From assembly GCA_003117195.1 (NCBI GenBank), contig BDSI01000046.1, positions 776,713 through 840,712 of the forward strand: DNA of 64,000 nt. The letters are read 5' to 3'. Position 1 is the stretch's first letter; every line of letters begins with the position of its first letter. The notes beneath the pieces were generated by a model. It made no database searches and was not told the origin of the DNA. It saw nothing but the letters and a program-made list of their open reading frames with translations. This document shows, one piece after another, positions 33,276 through 60,000 of this stretch. The translations under genes were made by a program, and so were the position numbers. Origin of the DNA: Eudorina sp. 2006-703-Eu-15. Taxonomy: Eukaryota; Chlorophyta; Chlorophyceae; Chlamydomonadales; Volvocaceae.

Positions 33276-42440
<9,165 letters not shown>

Positions 42441-43809: not shown

Positions 43810-46800
43810 ATGCGTCGTTCCAGACGTACCTGCGTGCGCATCGCTGCGCCTGCAGCCCTGCTTTTAATTCTTGCTGTAGTAATCCATGCGACAACAAATG
43901 ATATTCACGCACCCGAAACAAGTGCCAGCGCATTACCTGGTATCGATGCGGGCGAAGGCAACGAACCCATGGCGGACGTTGGTGCGCGTGCGGAGAGCCA
44001 AAACGTGGAACGCACCGGCTTTGACAGCACTTTCAACTACACGGCACTGGAATGCAGCCGATATGATCCTACATACACCCAAATCGACAGCGACCTGGAG
44101 GTGGGCCGCAAGCTGGGCATCTCGCTTGCGGCCACCCGTTACATCGCGGCCAAGCTGGGCAGCGTGCCCATGCGGGGAGCCACAGTCGGGTAAGCATAAG
44201 TGGGGTAAGCCGCAGTGGGGTAAGCCGCAGTGGGGTAAGCCGCAGTGGGTTAAGCATCAGTGGGGCAAGCCGCAGTGGGGTAAGCCGCAGTGGGGTAAGC
44301 CGCAGTGGGGTAAGCCGCAGTGGGGTAAGCCGCAGCAACAACCGGAGCGAGGGCGAGGGCGCGAGCAGGGGTAGGGGTGGGGGTGGGGGCGGCGCATTAG
44401 TCCAGTGCCGCGCCTGTGCAGCTGCCGTGTGGTGTCAGTCAGCCCAGTTCACTGCCAACCGAGCCCGTCGGGGGGTTTGGGGTGGGGGGTGGGGAGCGGC
44501 GCGTCCGATGGCCGGATTTGACGGCTGCCGTCTTGGGGTGTCCGCGGCCCCAGGGACCTAGGGCCTTCTGGCTTGTGTTTCGCAGCGTTGTCCTGGAGCC
44601 CCCTCGTTTAAAAAACGGTCATACGCCTCTGCAACCCCTCCCCTCGGCGCCACTATGCTGATGCACACACACGGCACGGCACCCCTTCGCCCTTGGCCTC
44701 CTTGTATCTGTCCCCGGCCCCCCTGGGTCTTCCTCCCCACTCCCATCAACCCCCTAACCCCCACCCTCCACCCAACCCACTCCACCGCCTCCTCCCCCCG
44801 CCCGCCTCCCGCCTCCCCCCCCCCTGGGTCTCCCACCCTCCACCCAACCCACTCCACCGCCTCCTCCCCCCGCCCGCCTCCCGCCTCCCGCCGCCCCCCA
44901 ACCCCGCAGCTTCTTCGGCGGCCGCGCCTACCTGCTCACCCCCACCGACTTCCCGCAGCTGAGCCACCACGCCGCCCTGCACGTGGCGTACATGCGCATG
45001 CTGCTGCACCTGGAGGACTGCTTCGGGGGCCACCTGCCGGATGTGGCCTTCGTGCTCACCACCTCAGACACACCGCGATATGTGAGAGGACGGGGGGGGT
45101 TAAAGGGCCACCCCGGGAAGGTGGTGGTGGCGGGGTAAGGCCGGGAGGGCAAGGGGGGAAGGGCCGGGAGGGAAAGGAGGGGGGGGAGGGAGGGTAGGGG
45201 CGGTAGCAGGGAGGGAAAGGGGGGGAGCGCCTTAAGGAAAGGAAAGGTTGGGGACCCCATCCGGCACGACGAGCGGGTCGCTAAGCGCCTTCATTGGTCG
45301 CGGGCAAGGGGATGGGGGATGGGGTGGGTGGGGAGCGGGGGGTTGCGCCATCCGCCGCGCACCCCAAGCCCACGTCCGGGGGGCTCTCACTGTGGGCGGC
45401 GCCGGGACATGGGGTGCTGTACGGGTCGGGGGACCCGAACAGGTTGTGCCTCTCACGGGGTTGCCCCCCTCCCTCTCTCTCTCTCTAGCGGTTTTGGAGC
45501 TGGCGGGGGCTTCACACCCCACCGCCCTGAGGGGACGCATCGCCGCATCTCCGTGTGTGTGGGAGGGAGGAGGCATTGCTGCGGGGACTCCACACTCCAA
45601 GGGGGGAACTCCAAGGGGGACTCCACGGGGGAACTACAGGGGGAGACCCCCAACGGCACTGCGCCCGCTTCTCGTCCCCCGGCTCGCTGTACCCTTCTTC
45701 CCCAACCCCGCACTCCCCCACCCCCACCCCACCCCCCCACCCCTGCCAAACGGACAGGTGTCGCCCCTCAAGGTGAACGCCAGCAGCCCCCGCTCCGAGC
45801 TGCGTCACTACCCGCCCGACCTGGAGCCGGGGCCCTATCCGGTGACGGGCATCGGCAAGAGCGACTTCTTCCCTGACCTGCTGCTCGTACCCAACTTCCA
45901 CTTCCACATGAGGTAGGGGCGGAGCCGGGGGGGGGCGGGGGGGCGGGGGGGAGAGGGGTGGACGGGGCCAGGGGGCGGGGCCAGGGGGCGGGGGCCAGGG
46001 GGCAGGGGCCATGGGGCGGGGGGCAGGGGGCAGGGGACGGGAGGGGAGCGGGGGGTTCGCTGTCTTGGCATCATCGACACTAGGGGGGGAGTAGGGGGAT
46101 ATAGGGCATTGGTAGACATATTCAAACTGCGCTGCTGTCAGAGCAAACGGGGGGAGTAGGGGGAGGGGGGACCCGGGGGTGGAGTGTGGAGGGCAGGGGC
46201 TCGGGAGGGGGCGGCAGGCAGGGGGCCGGGAGGGGCCCTGGTGGACCTCCTTTCAAGGGGGAAGGGCCCGCCTCCCCCCACTCCCCTAAGTGCGGAGGAG
46301 CGGTGGATGCCAGGGCGTACCCTCCACGTTCCACTGCAATACGGTTCTGGTTGGGACGGCGTGTGGGCGGTGGATACGGATCCGGCGACATTCCTTTGAC
46401 GACCTGGGCAACAGCTCCGGTACGGCGAAGGCTGGCGGAACGGACGAGAGCGTGGGACGGACAGCTAATGGCGGAGCAGCGGCTGACAGCCCAAGGGGGG
46501 GGATATGGATTGGGGAACCGATACGTGGCAGGGGGGGGGCGGGTGCCGCCTCTTAGGGCCCCCTGAGTTTCCTGATCCGGACTGCTGCGCTTCGCCGTCC
46601 GGTCGTACAGGCTGTACGACCAGACGTTCCTGGCGGCTATCCCCGAGTTCAACGAGGTGGCCTGGAGGCAGCGCAAACCCGTGCTGTTCGGCAGGTTCAG
46701 GTGCGGGAAGGGGGGGAGGGGCGGGGGGCGGGGCGGAGCGGAGCAGGGGGATACGGGACGGGGGTAGGCCGTAACGACGCACTGCACGCTGGAGGAGGGG

Positions 46801-49800
46801 AGGGGAGGGTATAGGAAATTGGTATTCATGGGGGGGGAGGGAGGGGGGAAGCGGGGGGGAGGGGGGCAGTTACTCCGTAGGGCCGCCCAGAAGGTCCGGG
46901 CCGCCGCTGCCGAGGTGGGGTTGGATGGGGCAGGGGTTGAAGGGGTTGAAGGGATTGCAGGGCAAGGGGTGGGGCGCGGGAAGTGGAGCTCTGGCCCCTG
47001 TGAGGGGAGGTGGGCGCGGGGTGGGGCCTGGGGCGGCCAGCGGGGTCATCGGGGGAGGATCTGGAGGGAGCCCGGGGATGGGGACTGCGGTGGCGCAAAG
47101 GCACCGCACTTCCTCCGCATTCCCCCCCTCCCCCCCACACACACATACACACCTCCTCCTCTGCCCGTCCTCCCCTCCTCTCTGATGTGCAACGTGGCGA
47201 CCCGTGGGTCGCATCCACATCCACATCCACATCCACATCCACATCCACATCCACATCCACATCCACATCCACATCCACATCCACATCCACATCCACATCC
47301 ACATCCACATCCACATCCACATCCACATCCACATCCACATCCACATCCACATCCACATCCACATCCACATCCACATCCACATCCACATCCACATCCACAT
47401 CCACATCCACATCCACATCCACATCCACATCCACATCCACATCCATCGCCTGCCCTCAACTCGCACCCCGGGCACGACTCCGACCTTGCCAACACACACC
47501 AACTCCACGCACCGTCAATGATACCAACAATCCCTCTCCATCCATCCCCCCCTCCCGCTTTGGCCCCCCTCCCCCCCTCCCCTCCTTTGCCACAGCCACT
47601 ACCGCACCAACCGGGTGTCAGATGACGTCTTCACGTACAAGACCGGCAGCAACGGCCGTCGGATCTGCTACAAGGGCAACAAGACCTGCCCATTCAGGGA
47701 CTACTTCATATCCAAGATTGCGCCGCAGGTACGGCAGCGTACGGCGCACGGCACGCCCGATTGCGCTCTGCGGGTGACGAGCGTGTGTGTGGGGGGGGGG
47801 GCCCGTTTTGGGGGTTCAACTGAATCAAGGAATAAACCCGAGACCCGGTGGGGTGGGGGTTTTGGGGGCGTGTCGGTGCGCGTCGAGACCTGGAGGTACC
47901 TACCGCACATCCGGCGGGTGGGTGGGCGCATCACTCGGTGCGCCCTACCGCTCGGTGTGCCCTGATCGGCCGGCTCCTCCCGCCACCCGCGGATGTGTCT
48001 ACCCGTTTCCTATACCCATCTGCTCGCCGGGTGGTGGACCTCCGCCCGAGGGTCCGTCCCTGGGATACTCGAGAGCCCCGCGCCCGGGTTCCAACCCCAA
48101 CGCCCCGCTCCCGGTTTCGTTGCTGGGTTTTCACCCCCGCTCCATCCCCCCACACACACACACCCCACCTCGTATGCCACTCAAGACGGCAAAACCGCGG
48201 CAAGTCACCCAGTGCTCCAACACACCCACCCCTTGTTCGTGCCGGCCCCCCCTACCGCCCGCCCCCCACAGGACCCGTCCCGCATGGACGTGTCCTTCGT
48301 CGGGCGCATCTCCATGCAAGCCCACGCCCGCTTCAAGTACCTGGCGCACCTGGACGGCCAGGGGTGAGGGGCGGGGGGGCCTAGAGGGGGGGACGGGGGG
48401 ATTTGGGGGGATGTTTGGGGGGATGTTTGGAGATAATAAGGGGGGGCGCAAAGAAGCTGAGGAGGGAAACAGCAGGGTAAGTGATGAGGAGATAAGCGGG
48501 GGGCGAAAGGGCCCGGCGTGCGGATGGGGAAGCCGCGAGCCGCGATACGTTTGTGTGTGGTGTGGGTGGAGTGCCCGCCGGGGGGAGGGGAAGGGGGTGT
48601 GGAGGAGGAAGAGGGGGGCGGGCCGGGGGCCGGGGGGCGGGGCCATGAAGACCCCGGACCGGGGCCTGGCACCCAGGCCCGGCCCCGTCACCCGCACCCA
48701 ACCCAATCTAGTTCCCTGCCCACACCCATGCCTTACCTGCCCCCCCGCAGGATCTGAGCCTAGCGGTCGTTGGAATCTCAACCACCACCTGTACCTCCGT
48801 ACGTCAACCCCGCAAGCCCGCAGCCCCCCTACAATTTCCTATACCCCCCCTCCTCTACCCTCGCCCCCACTCTACCTTGCCCCTCCACCCCCACCCCCCA
48901 ACCCCCCCTTCCTGTTCCCCCGTCAGGATCTCCTCCCGCCTGGAGCAGCTGCTCCCTCTGGGCAGCCTGGTGTTCAGACAGGCCTCGGGGTACTACGCCT
49001 ACTACTACCGCAGGTTGGGGTGGGGTTGGGGGTGGGGATGGGGGTTGGGGGTTGGGGGTTGGGGGTTGGGGTTGGGGGTTGGGGGTGGGGGTGGGGGTGG
49101 GGTGGGGGTGGGGGTGGGGGTGGGGGTGGGGGTGGGGGTGGGGGTGGGGGTGGGGTGGGGGTGGGGGTGGGGGTTATCCGTCCCCTCACACCAGCCGCCT
49201 CGGTGCCACGGAACCCCACTTCGCCAGTTGTACATGCCGTACGTGTCTCCTCACATGCCGTACTAACTACACCCCCCTCCGCCTCCTCAGCCTGTTGCGG
49301 CACCGCGAGAACCTGGTGGAGTTCTGGCGGGGGGAGCCGGGCAGCGGCCCCGAGGACGTGCTGGCGGAGCTGGACTGGGCGGCGGCGTACGACGAGGAGG
49401 CGGCGGCGGTGGCGGCGGCGGGGCAGCGCCTAGCGGCCACCTACCTGACGGGCAACGGCCGGACATGCTACTGGTACAGGTGAGGCAGGGGGGGCCCAAA
49501 GGGGGAGGGAAGGGGGGGCTGGGGGCCCCACTGCGGCCCGGGAGGGTTTGAACCAGGCCGTCGTGGGGGAGGAAACTCAAAGGGTGTATGTGTATATGTG
49601 TGGTGGTGGTGGGCGGGGGGCAGGTGGAAGGGCGCCCACTTGCCCTGGCAGCAGCGCAGTATGATAATGTCTACCAATACACCCACCCATGCCCAACCCC
49701 TTAAACCCCCCGCCCCTTCATGTCAATAAAGACAGCGAAACGCAACGTCTTACTCCCCCCTGCAGGCTCCTGCACGGCCTCCGTACCGCCCTGTCGTACA

Positions 49801-49913
49801 CCCCCTCCCTGTCGGACTGGCCGGAAGCCCAACCGCTGCGGACCGTGATCGAGGAGCAGCTGCCCGCCACCCCGACCGGGAAGGAGCTGTACGACAGGCC
49901 TTGGGCGCCGTGA
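43810..49913 (+). CDS. GT90 (CAP10/POGLUT-like) glycosyltransferase
   Basis: Nine exons: 43810-44189, 44910-45081, 45758-45912, 46611-46700, 47596-47728, 48272-48363, 48927-49013, 49291-49479, 49766-49913. Phases close; 1446 nt, 481 aa, a normal length for the family. The N-terminus is a type II signal anchor (RRSRRTCVRIAAPAALLLIL), so a Golgi or ER lumenal location is likely. Family landmarks in order are HLPDVAFVLTTSDTPRY, DLLLVPNFHFHMR, FNEVAWRQRKPVLFGRF, HYRTNR, FKYLAHLDGQGISSRLEQLL and PLGSLVFRQASGYYAYYYR. They match the C-terminal DG...S.R...LL..GS.V...S pattern of O-glucosyl/xylosyltransferases. The usual HYVP-like segment after this is replaced by LRHRENLVEFW. The last 50 residues are short of the family's KDEL-type tail. 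Substrate is unknown. Intron 1 and intron 7 donors are embedded in tandem arrays. Confidence 0.88.
44190..44335 (+). repeat. 15-bp minisatellite of splice donors at the start of GT90 intron 1
   Basis: Ten units of GTAAGCCGCAGTGGG, beginning at the first base of the intron. Eight units keep GTAAGC exactly (44190, 44205, 44220, 44235, 44280, 44295, 44310, 44325), one has TTAAGC (44250) and one GCAAGC (44265). Each also carries CAG. Confidence 0.93.
44752..44909 (+). repeat. Duplicated polypyrimidine tract before GT90 exon 2
   Basis: A block containing CCAACCCACTCCACCGCC followed by CTCC/CGCC runs occurs twice in tandem (about 68 bp), right up to the CCCCGCAG acceptor of exon 2. Confidence 0.8.
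47213..47444. repeat. (CCACAT)n hexamer array in GT90 intron 4
   Basis: About 38 nearly perfect copies. Open in all frames because the unit has no stop, giving His-Pro, Asp-Val or similar dipeptides; it lies between two clean splice junctions and is not coding. Confidence 0.95.
49014..49176 (+). repeat. GGGGT/GGGGGTT array at the GT90 intron 7 donor
   Basis: The donor GTTGGGG is the first unit of about 160 bp of G4-5T and G5T2 repeats on the sense strand. The G runs are dense enough for G-quadruplex formation. Confidence 0.9.
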
Positions 49914-52130
49914 CGCGGTTCTATGAGTCTGTATTGGGAGCGGCACCTACCAGCGGAGGCCCCCTTCGCTGGGTGTGTGGGGGGCCCCAGGGGAAGGGGG
50001 AGGGGGGAGGGGGAGGGGGGGAGGGCCCGGTAGCTACATCCCTCCGGAGGTGCGGGGGCCGTTGCCACGCAGCCGCGTTCCGATGGGGAGGTTGGTGTGA
50101 GCTGGACCTGGACCTGGACCTGGACCTGGACCTGGACCTGGACCTGGACCTGGACCTGGACCTGGACCTGGACCTGGACCTGGACCTGGACCTGGACCTG
50201 GACCTGGACCTGGACCTGGACCTGGACCTGGACCTGGACCTGGACCTGGACCTGGACCTGGACCTGGACCTGGACCTGGACCTGGACCTGGACCTGGACC
50301 TGGACCTGGACCTGGACCCCGATGGGAACCACTGTGTAGTAGACCTGGACCTGGACCTGGACCGTCGCACATGGGCCGTCGCATACGGGCTTCCATAGCA
50401 GTGGTGGCGCGCGGCGTCCGATTACGGCAGTGGCATGCGCGCGTGTCATTGGCTTCGGCCGCGGGTGGGGGGAACAGACCCACCGAAGGCCCAGCGACCA
50501 AAAGGGACGACGTGAGCTGGGGTTGCGGGTACGGGCGAGTACGGGTACGAGTACGGGTACGGGTACGGGTACGGCCGATGATCGGCAACGAGGGCGGACA
50601 GTCGGGTATTTCACCGGCGACGACGGAGCGCCGACCTCCAGGAGGAGGAGGAGGAGGGGGAGGAGGGGAAGGAGGAACCACCCCGAGTTGGGAGCGACGC
50701 AGCCCTCGGTCACTGCGACTCGGAGCCGACATAGCCTTGGAGGGAGGGGAGGATGGGGAGGGGAGGGGAATGCGGGGAGATGGTGCTCGAAGGAGTGATT
50801 TAGTGGGGGGTGTCCACTGACCGTGCAGCAACTGTACGGCGGCCCTGGAGAAAGGACTGCTTGAGCAAGCGGGGTAGGGCCCCCCCTCCAGCATGGCCGC
50901 GATATCGCCAGATACGGTAGGGGCGGTGCAAGCCGCCGGGGGCTGTCAGCGTGTTGCCGCATGCGGAGGAGTGATGGAAGAAGTGGTCATGGCAGCAGGG
51001 TTATAGGGGGGAGGGGAGGGGAGTTGTTGCCGCTGCGACGACGCGGTCGTGCATTGCACTTTGCACCTGGCGGGAAGCGCTCGAGTGGATTTGATTGGGG
51101 CGTTGCGACGACGACGGGCTGTTGCGGCACAGGGGGCGAGAGGCGGTACGTCCGGACATCCTCCGGGTGTGACCGTGTGTCCAGCTGATAATCGGGCCTC
51201 TCACGATGTCACGAATCACGTGGGTGCCGGTGCCGACGACCAGGGTGGCAGGGCGATTGCAGTTCGGGAGGCGGATGTTGCCCTTCGGATGTTTCCCTGG
51301 CGCGGGCTGGCTGCCGGGTAGTATGCCACTCCGGTCAGGACCGCCGCCACGAGCTCGAGTGCCCGACCTGACGCAACCTCTGATCGGTCGTCAACAGTGT
51401 GGCTTGAGGAGCTCCTCCGTCCACCGGTTCGCACACACAGACTACCGCAGCATCCCCCCTCCAGACAAACGTTTAGGGGTGATACCACGGAACCCGGTTC
51501 GCGGCCTGGCCCCTGCTGGCACCAAGTCCCCGAAGCACTGTGGGCGCACAATGCCGGGACTCTCCAGCGGGCGGAATCGAAGGTGCGGCCAACCCCAGGG
51601 CAACAACCTGCCAATGTGCCAAAGTGGCACTGCCGTTACCCCATTTGAGACAAGCGCATCCGAACAACACATGTACACCGCGGAGATCTCAGGCAGGGAT
51701 CCCGGCCCAGGCAGGCGCCGCCGTGTCAAGTTTGCTCCTCGGGCCGTTCCTCGCCGTGGCGCCGAGCCAGGAAAGCTGCCGTATCATGATGCATTCAAAA
51801 CGTGCCGTCCAGCGCATCCGCGCCCCCGCCTCGTCCCGTCCCATCTGGTCTGGTCTGGTCTCGTCCGACCCCCACATGGCGCAGCACCCGCTCCAACACC
51901 GCCCGATATCCCGTTCGTTCGATGCCTCGTCGGAGCCGCACTCCTCGGCCGCGGCATCCTTCCTAGTTGGCGGGACCCACATGGCGGATTCTGAGCCACA
52001 CCAACCTAGTTCCATCTCCCCACGTGCCGTTACCGTACAATCCCCTGGCCCCCACCACAAAACATTTCTTTCCCTTGGCTCAGCAGCGTCATTGCGCGAC
52101 ACCACCACACAGCCACCACCACCGCCGTGC
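49914..52130. other. Intergenic, with hexamer repeats
   Basis: Holds the 3' UTR of GT90 and the (GGACCT)n array. Open frames at 51206-51994 and 51540-52241 show no domain. No TGTAA near the GT90 stop was seen. Confidence 0.5.
50100..50317. repeat. (GGACCT)n hexamer array
   Basis: About 36 copies, with three further units at about 50,340-50,359. It starts 187 bp after the GT90 stop codon, so it may lie in the 3' UTR. Confidence 0.95.
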
Positions 52131-57000: not shown

Positions 57001-60000
57001 CCCGGTCTCACCTTTGAGCCCCTGCACCCGCGGCCGCAGCCACCCTCCCCGCCGCACTCCTCGCCCCTGGGCGTCCCCCGCAGCAGGTCCTCCGCGGGTG
57101 GGGACCGAGGCAGCGGCGGCGGTGGGCTCGGATCACCGCTGTGGCCGCAGGGCCTGGCGCCGGTCAGTGACCGCGGCGGCAGCGTGAGCAGCCCCGCCCG
57201 CGGTTCCCCGGGCAGCGGCGGCGGCGGCGGCGGCACCTCGGAGTCCAGTCCGGATGGCGGGGTGCAGGGGCTGCAGGCGCTGCTGGCGTTCCTGCAGCGC
57301 AAGTTCCAGCAGCGATGGGAGCGGCGGCGCGCCGCGCGGGCGCTGGCGGGCTGGCGCCGTGCCGCGGTCGGTGGCGGTGGCGGTGCGGGCGACAGCAGCG
57401 GCGGCGGCGGCGTGCCGCGCGGGCGATACGGTGGGTGGATGGGCGGCCGTGGGTCGGGACGCGGTGGCGGTTTGTGAAGGGGCGCGGTGAGGGGGAGTTG
57501 CGCTAGGGTTGGGTTCGTTAAGCTGGTCTGGGTGTTGAGGTCATTGGATTGGTGCCTACAAACTCGTTTGGAGCCAACGGGGTTTAGGAAACCGCGACGC
57601 AGTCCAGTCGCGGTGATCAAGAAAGAGTTCAAGCGCCAGAGCATGCGTGTCCCTCGTGTGCACACCATCCGCCAGCCCCCTGGTGGCCTCCCCCCGTTCC
57701 CCCGGGTGTGTCCTACTCCATGGAGTGGGGGAGGGGGCATGGAGCACGCAGGCGGGGCCACGCAATCAACGTCGGCAACCCTCTGGAAACCCGAATGCGT
57801 CCCGGACCCCCCGACCTCCCCACGGCAGAGGGGGGGGGGGTGGCGGCGGGGCCTGGCAGACGAGGGGCGGAGCGGTGAACACCTGCGCCATGTAGGAGAC
57901 CTTGCGCTCACGACCGCGCTCCCGCTATCTGTCATCCGTTTGTTGGCAGCAGGATCTCCCATCGCAAGCTCCGGCGCCAGCGCCCTGGACGGCATCTTTG
58001 ACGCCGGCGACAGCAGCGGCGGCGGTGGCGGAGGCCGCATGCGCTTCAGCGCGGGTGGCGGCGGCGCGGGGCCGATGTCGCCGGCGACCGCATCGGTCCC
58101 GTGGCAGCGATCCCTCAGCCCCAACAGCCCGGCCGCACGGTACGGTACGGTACGGCAGGGCGCCGCTGTACACCGCACGTGTGTGTCTGTTATTCGGAAG
58201 GCAAGACATGAGTGCGGGATGTACCACCTGTCAACCTGCAATGTACTATTTACCAGAGAAGGCGGCGAAACGTGCAATCGGCAACCAAAACAAGACGACC
58301 GCGCCGTCACCGGTGTCCTATACAAGCGCGAATCGAACAACTGCGTAAAATTACGCCGTAAATTTACGCCGACGGGCGATTACTGACGTGTGTCAAGGAA
58401 AACTAGCAGAAGCGAAGCCGAAGAGATGGTTCATGCAGGGAAATGTAGGGAATGCGAAACGCGAGCGCAAGAGATAGAAAAGGAAGGATGTTACAAACAC
58501 CGCAGCACATCAAGAAGCAACCCATGGTGACGGCGCGGCGTGGTGAGTGTGTTGCTTAGGCAGGCAGAGTGGTGAGTGTGTTTAGAGAAGAGTGGTGAGT
58601 GTGTTTAGAGAAGAGTGGTGAGTGTGTTTAGAGAAGGGTGGTGAGTGTGTTTAGAGAAGAGTGGTGAGTGTGTTTAGAGAAGAGTGGTGAGTGTGTTTAG
58701 AGAAGAGTGGTGAGTGTGTGTATGTGTAGACAGGAAACACTCAGAGTCCATGTATTCGGACTCGACCGAACCTCCTCCGCCTGCCATCCGACCGTACATG
58801 TACCGTACGGGGTGCTGACGACGTGGGATTGGCGGTGCGATGCCCCGGCGCGTGCCCCGCAGCACACATACGCATGTACGCCCGCGCACGGCACAACCAT
58901 GGGCGGCAATGGCCATCCCTGCCTTTGACTCCCCAAGGGCCATTTCATGGGGTGCACAATCAACCTGCCCTCGGTCCGCCACCCGCCCCAGTGCCCGGCT
59001 GCCGACGGCTCGCCCCTTACTTCCCTCCCCGCCTCCCTGCTCTCCCCATGCCTTACGCCGACACGACGGTCCCACGTGCGCAGTCGTACATCCATCGCAG
59101 ACGGCCCGACGCTCGGCAGCGCCCCGGCGTCCGCCTCCAGAAGTGCATCGCCGTACAGCAGCAGCTCCTGGGGCGGCCTCGCCCCGGCCGCCGGCGGTGC
59201 TGGCGCGTTCTCGCCCCGCGCTGCCGCTGCCGCCGCAGCCGCCGCGGGGTCTCGATCCTCCCCTGGAGGGGCGCCTCCCTTGGGCGTCAGCCCGCCGCCG
59301 CAGCAGCAGCAGCCGTCGCAGCGTTCCAAGCCCTGGAGCTCCGCTCCCGGCGGCGGCGGCGGCGGCGGCGCGGACACGACCTCCGCTGCGTCAGTGACAA
59401 GACCCGGCGGCGGCGGGGCGCGTCCTGCGCTGCAGCCGTTACTGACGCCGCTGCAGCCGGAGGACCTGCTCGTACGGCAGCCGGCCCTGGCGCCGGCTCG
59501 GGAGCTTGACCAATACCTCAACGAGGAGGACGAGCGGGAGGAGGAGGGGGAGGAGAGGTTTGAGGTGGAGGACGCGGAGGCGGCGGAGGCAGCAGCGGAC
59601 GCGGAAGCCATGGCGGCAGCGGCGGCGGCCTCGGCGGCAGAGCGTGAGGAGGAGGGGGAGGAGGGGGGCGTTCGCTCTGATGATGATGAGCGGCAGCAGC
59701 AGCAGGACGCGCCGTCGGATTACCTGCGGATGCAGCACTTGGAGCGGACGCTGGAGCAGGTCCGGCAGCAGCACGAACACCTGCAGTGGCAGCAGCACCA
59801 CGAGCAGCAGCAACAGCAACTGCGCCAGCTGCAGCTGCAGCTGCAGCAACTGCAGGACCAGCTGCTGCAGCACCACACGCAGCAGCAGAAGCAGCTGGAG
59901 GCACTGCAGCAGCAGCATCAGCAGCAGGCACATCACCAGCAGCTGAAGCCGCTGTCGGCGGAGTCGCTGCTCCACCGCCGCGGCAGCGCCGGGGGTGCCG

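Follow-up and report, generated by a model that had tools for sequence, protein, structure and literature searches.

Which splice donor does a cell use when an intron opens with the same donor many times over, how does such an arrangement come about, and does the number of copies matter? These questions are raised by a GT90 glycosyltransferase gene in the Eudorina DNA analysed here (a single stretch of 64,000 nucleotides, hereafter the window), whose first intron begins with a tandem array of 15-bp units, most of them carrying the donor hexamer GTAAGC. The locus amounts to a natural experiment in which the spliceosome must choose among eight near-identical donors lying 15 nt or multiples of it apart, and because every wrong choice leads to the same single stop, donor usage is readable from RNA alone.

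Gene model and the exon 1 junction

A model of nine exons spanning 43810-49913, with GT-AG at the intron borders, keeps the frame open for 481 aa (Table 1). The earlier note, made from the letters of this DNA, had named the product a GT90 glycosyltransferase, and that name is upheld by a Glyco_transf_90 domain (PF05686.18, E 1.5e-14) scoring 54.2 bits against a curated cut-off of 24, which places the protein in the GT90 / CAP10-like family. Protein searching listed 25 relatives at E <=0.001 from 7998 scored candidates, the best among those listed coming from Volvox reticuliferus and V. africanus (70% identity over 98%), and the V. reticuliferus protein P0001 matched each of the nine exons by tblastn. 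Around the first intron, residues 5-122 of P0001 correspond to 43843-44193, running into the TAA of the donor, and residues 121-179 correspond to 44908-45084.

Further evidence on this junction comes from a GT90 paralog on contig C45, which encodes LTLGFF as CTG GGC TTC TTC with no intron at that place and so fits a junction of GTC GG|C TTC TTC. The joining of 44189 to 44910 proposed earlier is therefore backed by the nine-exon frame, the P0001 matches and the paralog alike; the note had also named an exon structure in which 43810-44189 is not joined to 44910 as fatal to its reading, and on examination the two exons do join. In the C. reinhardtii protein model P0010, a gap begins at the residue where the C45 paralog has no intron.

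Elsewhere along the gene, an acceptor-like CAG|GATCT at 48751 (within 48743-48770) lies 176 nt before exon 7, which itself starts at 48927 after CAG|GATCT, making the upstream copy a possible decoy acceptor. Directed away from the GT90 gene, a minus-strand open frame at 37960-39165 presumably encodes a trypsin-type serine protease-like protein.

Table 1. Positions of gene, array and intron features in the window, with the basis of each call.
Feature	Position	Strand	Basis
Exon 1, ATG start, phase 2 end (GTC GG|)	43810..44189	+	nine-exon model; tblastn P0001 residues 5-122
Half unit within exon 1, its final 12 coding bases	44178..44189	+	10/12 vs unit, in register
Intron 1, 720 nt, phase 2	44190..44909	+	nine-exon model
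Donor array, ten 15-bp units in tandem, intron 1 start	44190..44335	+	
Donor 1, sole productive donor, CGG/GTAAGCAT	44190..44197	+	frame, homology, U1 pairing
In-frame TAA made by the donor itself; stays in the mRNA with any later donor	44191..44193	+	
Unit 5, donor destroyed (TTAAGC)	44250..44264	+	unit-by-unit reading
Unit 6, GC-type donor (GCAAGC)	44265..44279	+	unit-by-unit reading
C-rich 72-bp duplication, ends 11 nt before exon 2	44760..44898	+	TRF; predicted pairing with part of the donor array
Exon 2, opens CTTCTTCGGC...	44910..45081	+	nine-exon model; tblastn P0001
Exon 3	45758..45912	+	nine-exon model; tblastn P0001
Exon 4	46611..46700	+	nine-exon model; tblastn P0001
Exon 5	47596..47728	+	nine-exon model; tblastn P0001
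Exon 6	48272..48363	+	nine-exon model; tblastn P0001
Exon 7	48927..49013	+	nine-exon model; tblastn P0001
Exon 8	49291..49479	+	nine-exon model; tblastn P0001
Exon 9, includes stop codon	49766..49913	+	nine-exon model; tblastn P0001

Anatomy of the donor array

The donor array is real, confirmed at the sequence level. Read unit by unit, ten 15-bp units fill the first part of the intron, the last of them with only 11 bases, and GTAAGC is kept in eight (at 44190, 44205, 44220, 44235, 44280, 44295, 44310 and 44325), while TRF reports a 15-bp array at 44178-44335 with 10.5 copies, 89% matches and a score of 253. Donor 1 is followed by seven more GTAAGC within the next 151 nt, whereas 500 dinucleotide shuffles average 0.47 and never yield as many as seven (0/500). 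The ten units, the eight exact hexamers plus one GCAAGC and the 15-nt register are thus as the earlier note had described them, the remaining unit reading TTAAGC. Two of its details need correcting: CAG is present in nine units rather than all ten, with unit 1 having CATAAG, and the array starts not at the donor at 44190 but 12 nt upstream, within coding exon 1.

Origin from the exon-intron junction

This extension into the exon, absent from the earlier note, is the best clue to the origin of the array. Over its final 12 bases, AGCCACAGTCGG, exon 1 is identical to the unit, AGCCGCAGTGGG, at 10 of 12 positions and in register, a level of agreement (at least 10/12) attained at just 11 of 63,822 other plus-strand positions in the window, and the 357 remaining 12-mers within exon 1 all stay at or below 7/12; at 1.7e-4 per site, the likeness between unit and exon end is unlikely to be due to chance. 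The 14-nt junction, comprising 8 exonic and 6 intronic bases, is found nine more times at 11-12/14.

Of the 18 relatives aligned, 16 have residues at the end of exon 1. RG-x-TVG is present in 9/16 and TVGFF likewise in 9/16; the rest are either paralogs at a greater distance or models with a start or a break at this place. Because the residues encoded by the half unit are conserved, the exon end probably came first and the array later, and tandem duplication of the exon-intron junction is the most likely origin of the array as judged from this one genome. A stretch across the exon 1/intron 1 junction, made up of the 12 coding bases and the first donor bases, would have been tandemly duplicated and would then have expanded to ten units within the intron of this volvocine GT90 gene. 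Junction duplication of this sort offers a simple route by which donor arrays may arise.

Consequences for the reading frame

Since intron 1 is in phase 2, GG|GTAAG creates an in-frame TAA out of the donor itself, and since all later donors retain that TAA, donor 1 alone is productive, as had been foreseen in the claim that the exon frame meets TAA at the first unit and stays open with the first donor only. Any later donor gives one identical truncated frame with eight exons downstream, so that the premature stop lies far upstream of the later exon junctions, as in splicing coupled to nonsense-mediated decay (NMD). Splicing at a later donor would thus place the stop right after ...ATVG, and its product would probably be cleared by NMD. 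As far as the excerpted text of PMC5881031 goes, Chlamydomonas smg1 mutants accumulate mis-spliced transcripts, with NMD acting through SMG1; an intron-inclusion transcript bearing a premature stop nevertheless fails to accumulate in smg1, so that decay is not ensured by such a stop. For Volvox carteri, 17.9% of 580 events are of the alternative 5' site type (PMC4378016, from an excerpt), and the text of both studies is silent on the GT90 gene.

The proposal that later donors are also productive, lengthening the protein by five residues per unit, draws on the divisibility of 15 by three, and we give it almost no credence: the TAA is in frame with every later donor, which rules out read-through to longer proteins as long as exon 1 is translated in the frame of the model, and TVG is joined straight to FF in 9/16 aligned relatives. 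Micro-introns inside the units (GTAAGCCGCAG, 11 nt) were also considered and ruled out as far too short, 11 nt being far below workable intron length.

Strength of the competing donors

Whether donor 1 would also be preferred depends on the competition among donors, which we evaluated by pairing with U1. The U1 genes of this genome start ATACTTACCTG, as seen in 5/6 loci read. Donor 1 forms 9 Watson-Crick pairs and 1 GU pair with U1 (-10.3 kcal/mol), whereas the other seven GT donors of the array (GGG/GTAAGCCG) form 6 Watson-Crick and 1 GU (-9.2 kcal/mol). The later array donors are not weak, being stronger than four of the seven other donors of the gene, whose values are -4.4, -7.2, -7.3, -7.4, -9.8, -9.8 and -11.6 kcal/mol. 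On the U1 side, 12/20 listed matches fall within ~30 kb in a U1 snRNA gene cluster (G000:C18:779580-809241), where eleven clustered genes are spaced at 2.17-2.20 kb.

RNA folding predictions add to this picture. Across four contexts, donor 1 needs the least energy of the ten to open (1.4-4.4 kcal/mol), the other seven GT donors requiring 5.4-12.3. Folding of the full intron (831 nt in all) puts the cost at 5.0 for donor 1, 5.8 for the dead unit 5 and 8.1-10.0 for the other GT donors; by mean unpaired probability in that fold, donor 1, at 0.30, has no lead over the others, which lie at 0.28-0.55. With unit 1 reverted to the consensus, donor 1 is predicted to become harder to open, at 9.3 instead of 3.9 kcal/mol. 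The donors had been described earlier as equal, which they are not, donor 1 being the best by both U1 pairing and opening energy.

To combine the two quantities, we used a toy model that partitions U1 binding across the eight GT donors with or without RNA structure. At ten units the share of donor 1 is 0.996 with structure and 0.460 without, the U1 margin of 1.1 kcal/mol by itself giving donor 1 just 46%. With structure, the modelled share falls to 0.489 for a consensus unit 1 and to 0.001 when the exonic half unit is changed too. Randomised arrays serve as controls: when the nine non-donor bases were permuted alike in every unit, a share of 0.996 was attained by 32/100 arrays (median 0.973); when three changes were made at random in a consensus unit 1, it was attained by 24/100 (median 0.956); and among shuffled arrays, 5/60 equalled the mean opening-energy difference of the real array and donor 1 was easiest to open in 14/60. 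Because randomised edge donors often equal donor 1, its advantage is no evidence of selection, and the idea of a special self-masking of the later donors is weakened, with 5/60, 32/100 and 24/100 randomised arrays equally good. In these models donor 1 is plausibly preferred, with an advantage that comes cheaply at the edge of an array.

Repeats and composition of the introns

In the GT90 gene, the 5' third of all eight introns is rich in G and the 3' third of 7/8 is rich in C, within a window whose GC content is 63.8%; expressed as GC skew over 44190-49765, the first third ranges from +0.28 to +1.0 (8/8) and the last third is negative (7/8). G-rich repeats follow several donors and C-rich repeats precede several acceptors, and the two could pair across the intron. 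Intron 7 opens on a nearly pure G/T tract (49013-49175) with its own donor, GTTGGGG, at 49014 and seven more copies by 49078; seven further copies in 151 nt were reached in 0/500 shuffles for GTTGGGG and in 2/500 for the hexamer, and the remaining six introns of the gene hold 0 or 1 further donor copy. In the C45 paralog, (CCCCTG)n almost reaches the next matched exon (L063:774-880), giving a C-rich array near an intron 3' end. Other repeats noted are 39 perfect copies of CATCCA in intron 4 (47212-47445), 36 perfect copies of CTGGAC directly downstream of the gene (50102-50318, followed by another short block at 50342-50363) and a 23-bp unit containing GGTGAGT in 6.7 copies at 58566-58719.

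Weighing the explanations

We judge it fairly probable that the junction was duplicated into the array, that donor 1 is the one mostly used, and that the array is mainly a tolerated by-product with modest unproductive splicing at most. Splicing would mostly use donor 1 because this donor pairs best with U1 and sits at the margin of a G/C-rich, self-pairing repeat whose later donors cost more to open; if donor 1 dominates and the products of later donors decay, the array would be chiefly a consequence of repeat expansion that is tolerated, and the unproductive share would be modest at most. A consideration of the opposite sign is that in vertebrate in vitro work (Eperon et al. 1993) the intron-proximal of two strong donors reportedly tends to win, which would favour the last unit, against donor 1. 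The array could instead be an ordinary intronic minisatellite, holding GTAAGC by happenstance, touching the exon by chance and having a negligible effect on splicing. Tandem arrays indeed abound in the window, where TRF gives 167 rows scoring 40 or more and one scan gives 13 donor-motif arrays, and no genome-wide excess of donor arrays was found, with GTAAGC triplets at no fewer than 62 matches (at least 40 + 22) against at least 369 (153 + 216) for a reversed control motif. Three close GTAAGC occur at at least 27 distinct places genome-wide, the GT90 array included, and 17 of the 26 others were inspected through open frames and GC3; none was shown to lie at an exon end, and because such an inspection is coarse and long open frames lie upstream of some (e.g., L049, L055, L057), that position is excluded for none. 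Donor-like motifs within tandem arrays are common in this genome, then, with exon ends worked out for the GT90 gene only. What makes the happenstance account unlikely is that the 12 exonic bases match the unit in register and that the complete 14-nt junction recurs nine times.

Copy number could also act as a dial on expression, with U1 binding governed by pairing strength, each later donor taking a fixed share and NMD lowering output with each unit. In its favour, the seven later GT donors pair with U1 better than four of the gene's seven others, the excerpt of PMC5881031 describes NMD in Chlamydomonas, and in the U1-only toy model the share of donor 1 falls from 0.856 at 2 units through 0.460 at 10 to 0.260 at 20. 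With structure, however, the modelled share stays flat at 0.993-1.000 over the 11 unit numbers tried from 2 to 20, and we regard the dial as rather improbable; the two toy models predict opposite effects of copy number. More doubtful still is a heritable rheostat, in which slippage would rapidly change the number of units and so set the fraction of dead-end splicing and with it glycosyltransferase output, the target of which may be the cell wall or extracellular matrix.

Comparison with known systems

Among the titles and abstract openings searched, a scope outside which most subscription journals fall and so not proof of absence, no donor array in a green alga is described. Splicing coupled to NMD is similar in that an alternative site would bring a premature stop, whereas in the alga the stop is made by the donor itself, the intron being in phase 2. 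As the available part of PMC4974935 describes it, intron gain in potato RdRp proceeded by tandem genomic duplication, which resembles the alga in that local tandem duplication copies splice-site sequence; unlike potato, the alga would have gained donor copies in an existing intron and no new intron, the array lying inside a single 720-nt intron with one acceptor. DOK7 intron 4 has alternative 5' splice sites 11 nt apart (PMC5585400, from an excerpt), and there too donors a few nucleotides apart compete with full-length or truncated protein as the outcome, although the excerpt describes two donors and no tandem repeat where the alga has eight, and the productive DOK7 site is the intron-proximal one, unlike donor 1.

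The closest counterpart is the human 6-16 gene (IFI6, G1P3), for which a minisatellite with multiple splice donor sites is announced in the title of Turri, Cuin and Porter (Nucleic Acids Res 1995), as cited in PMC2572611 and PMC2915984. Both loci have a tandem repeat at an exon-intron border with a donor in each repeated unit, and in the alga the units bear donors (8/10 GTAAGC, 1 GC-type, 1 destroyed) and the array lies across the border, which is backed by homology, through its half unit at 44178-44189. The IFI6 unit is reportedly 12 bp long, and splicing at its extra donors reportedly lengthens the protein in frame, whereas the algal unit is 15 bp, belongs to an unrelated gene in a green alga, and has in every later donor a dead end that retains the TAA. 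By anatomy, the GT90 array is of the IFI6 kind, with the difference that all of its extra donors are dead ends.
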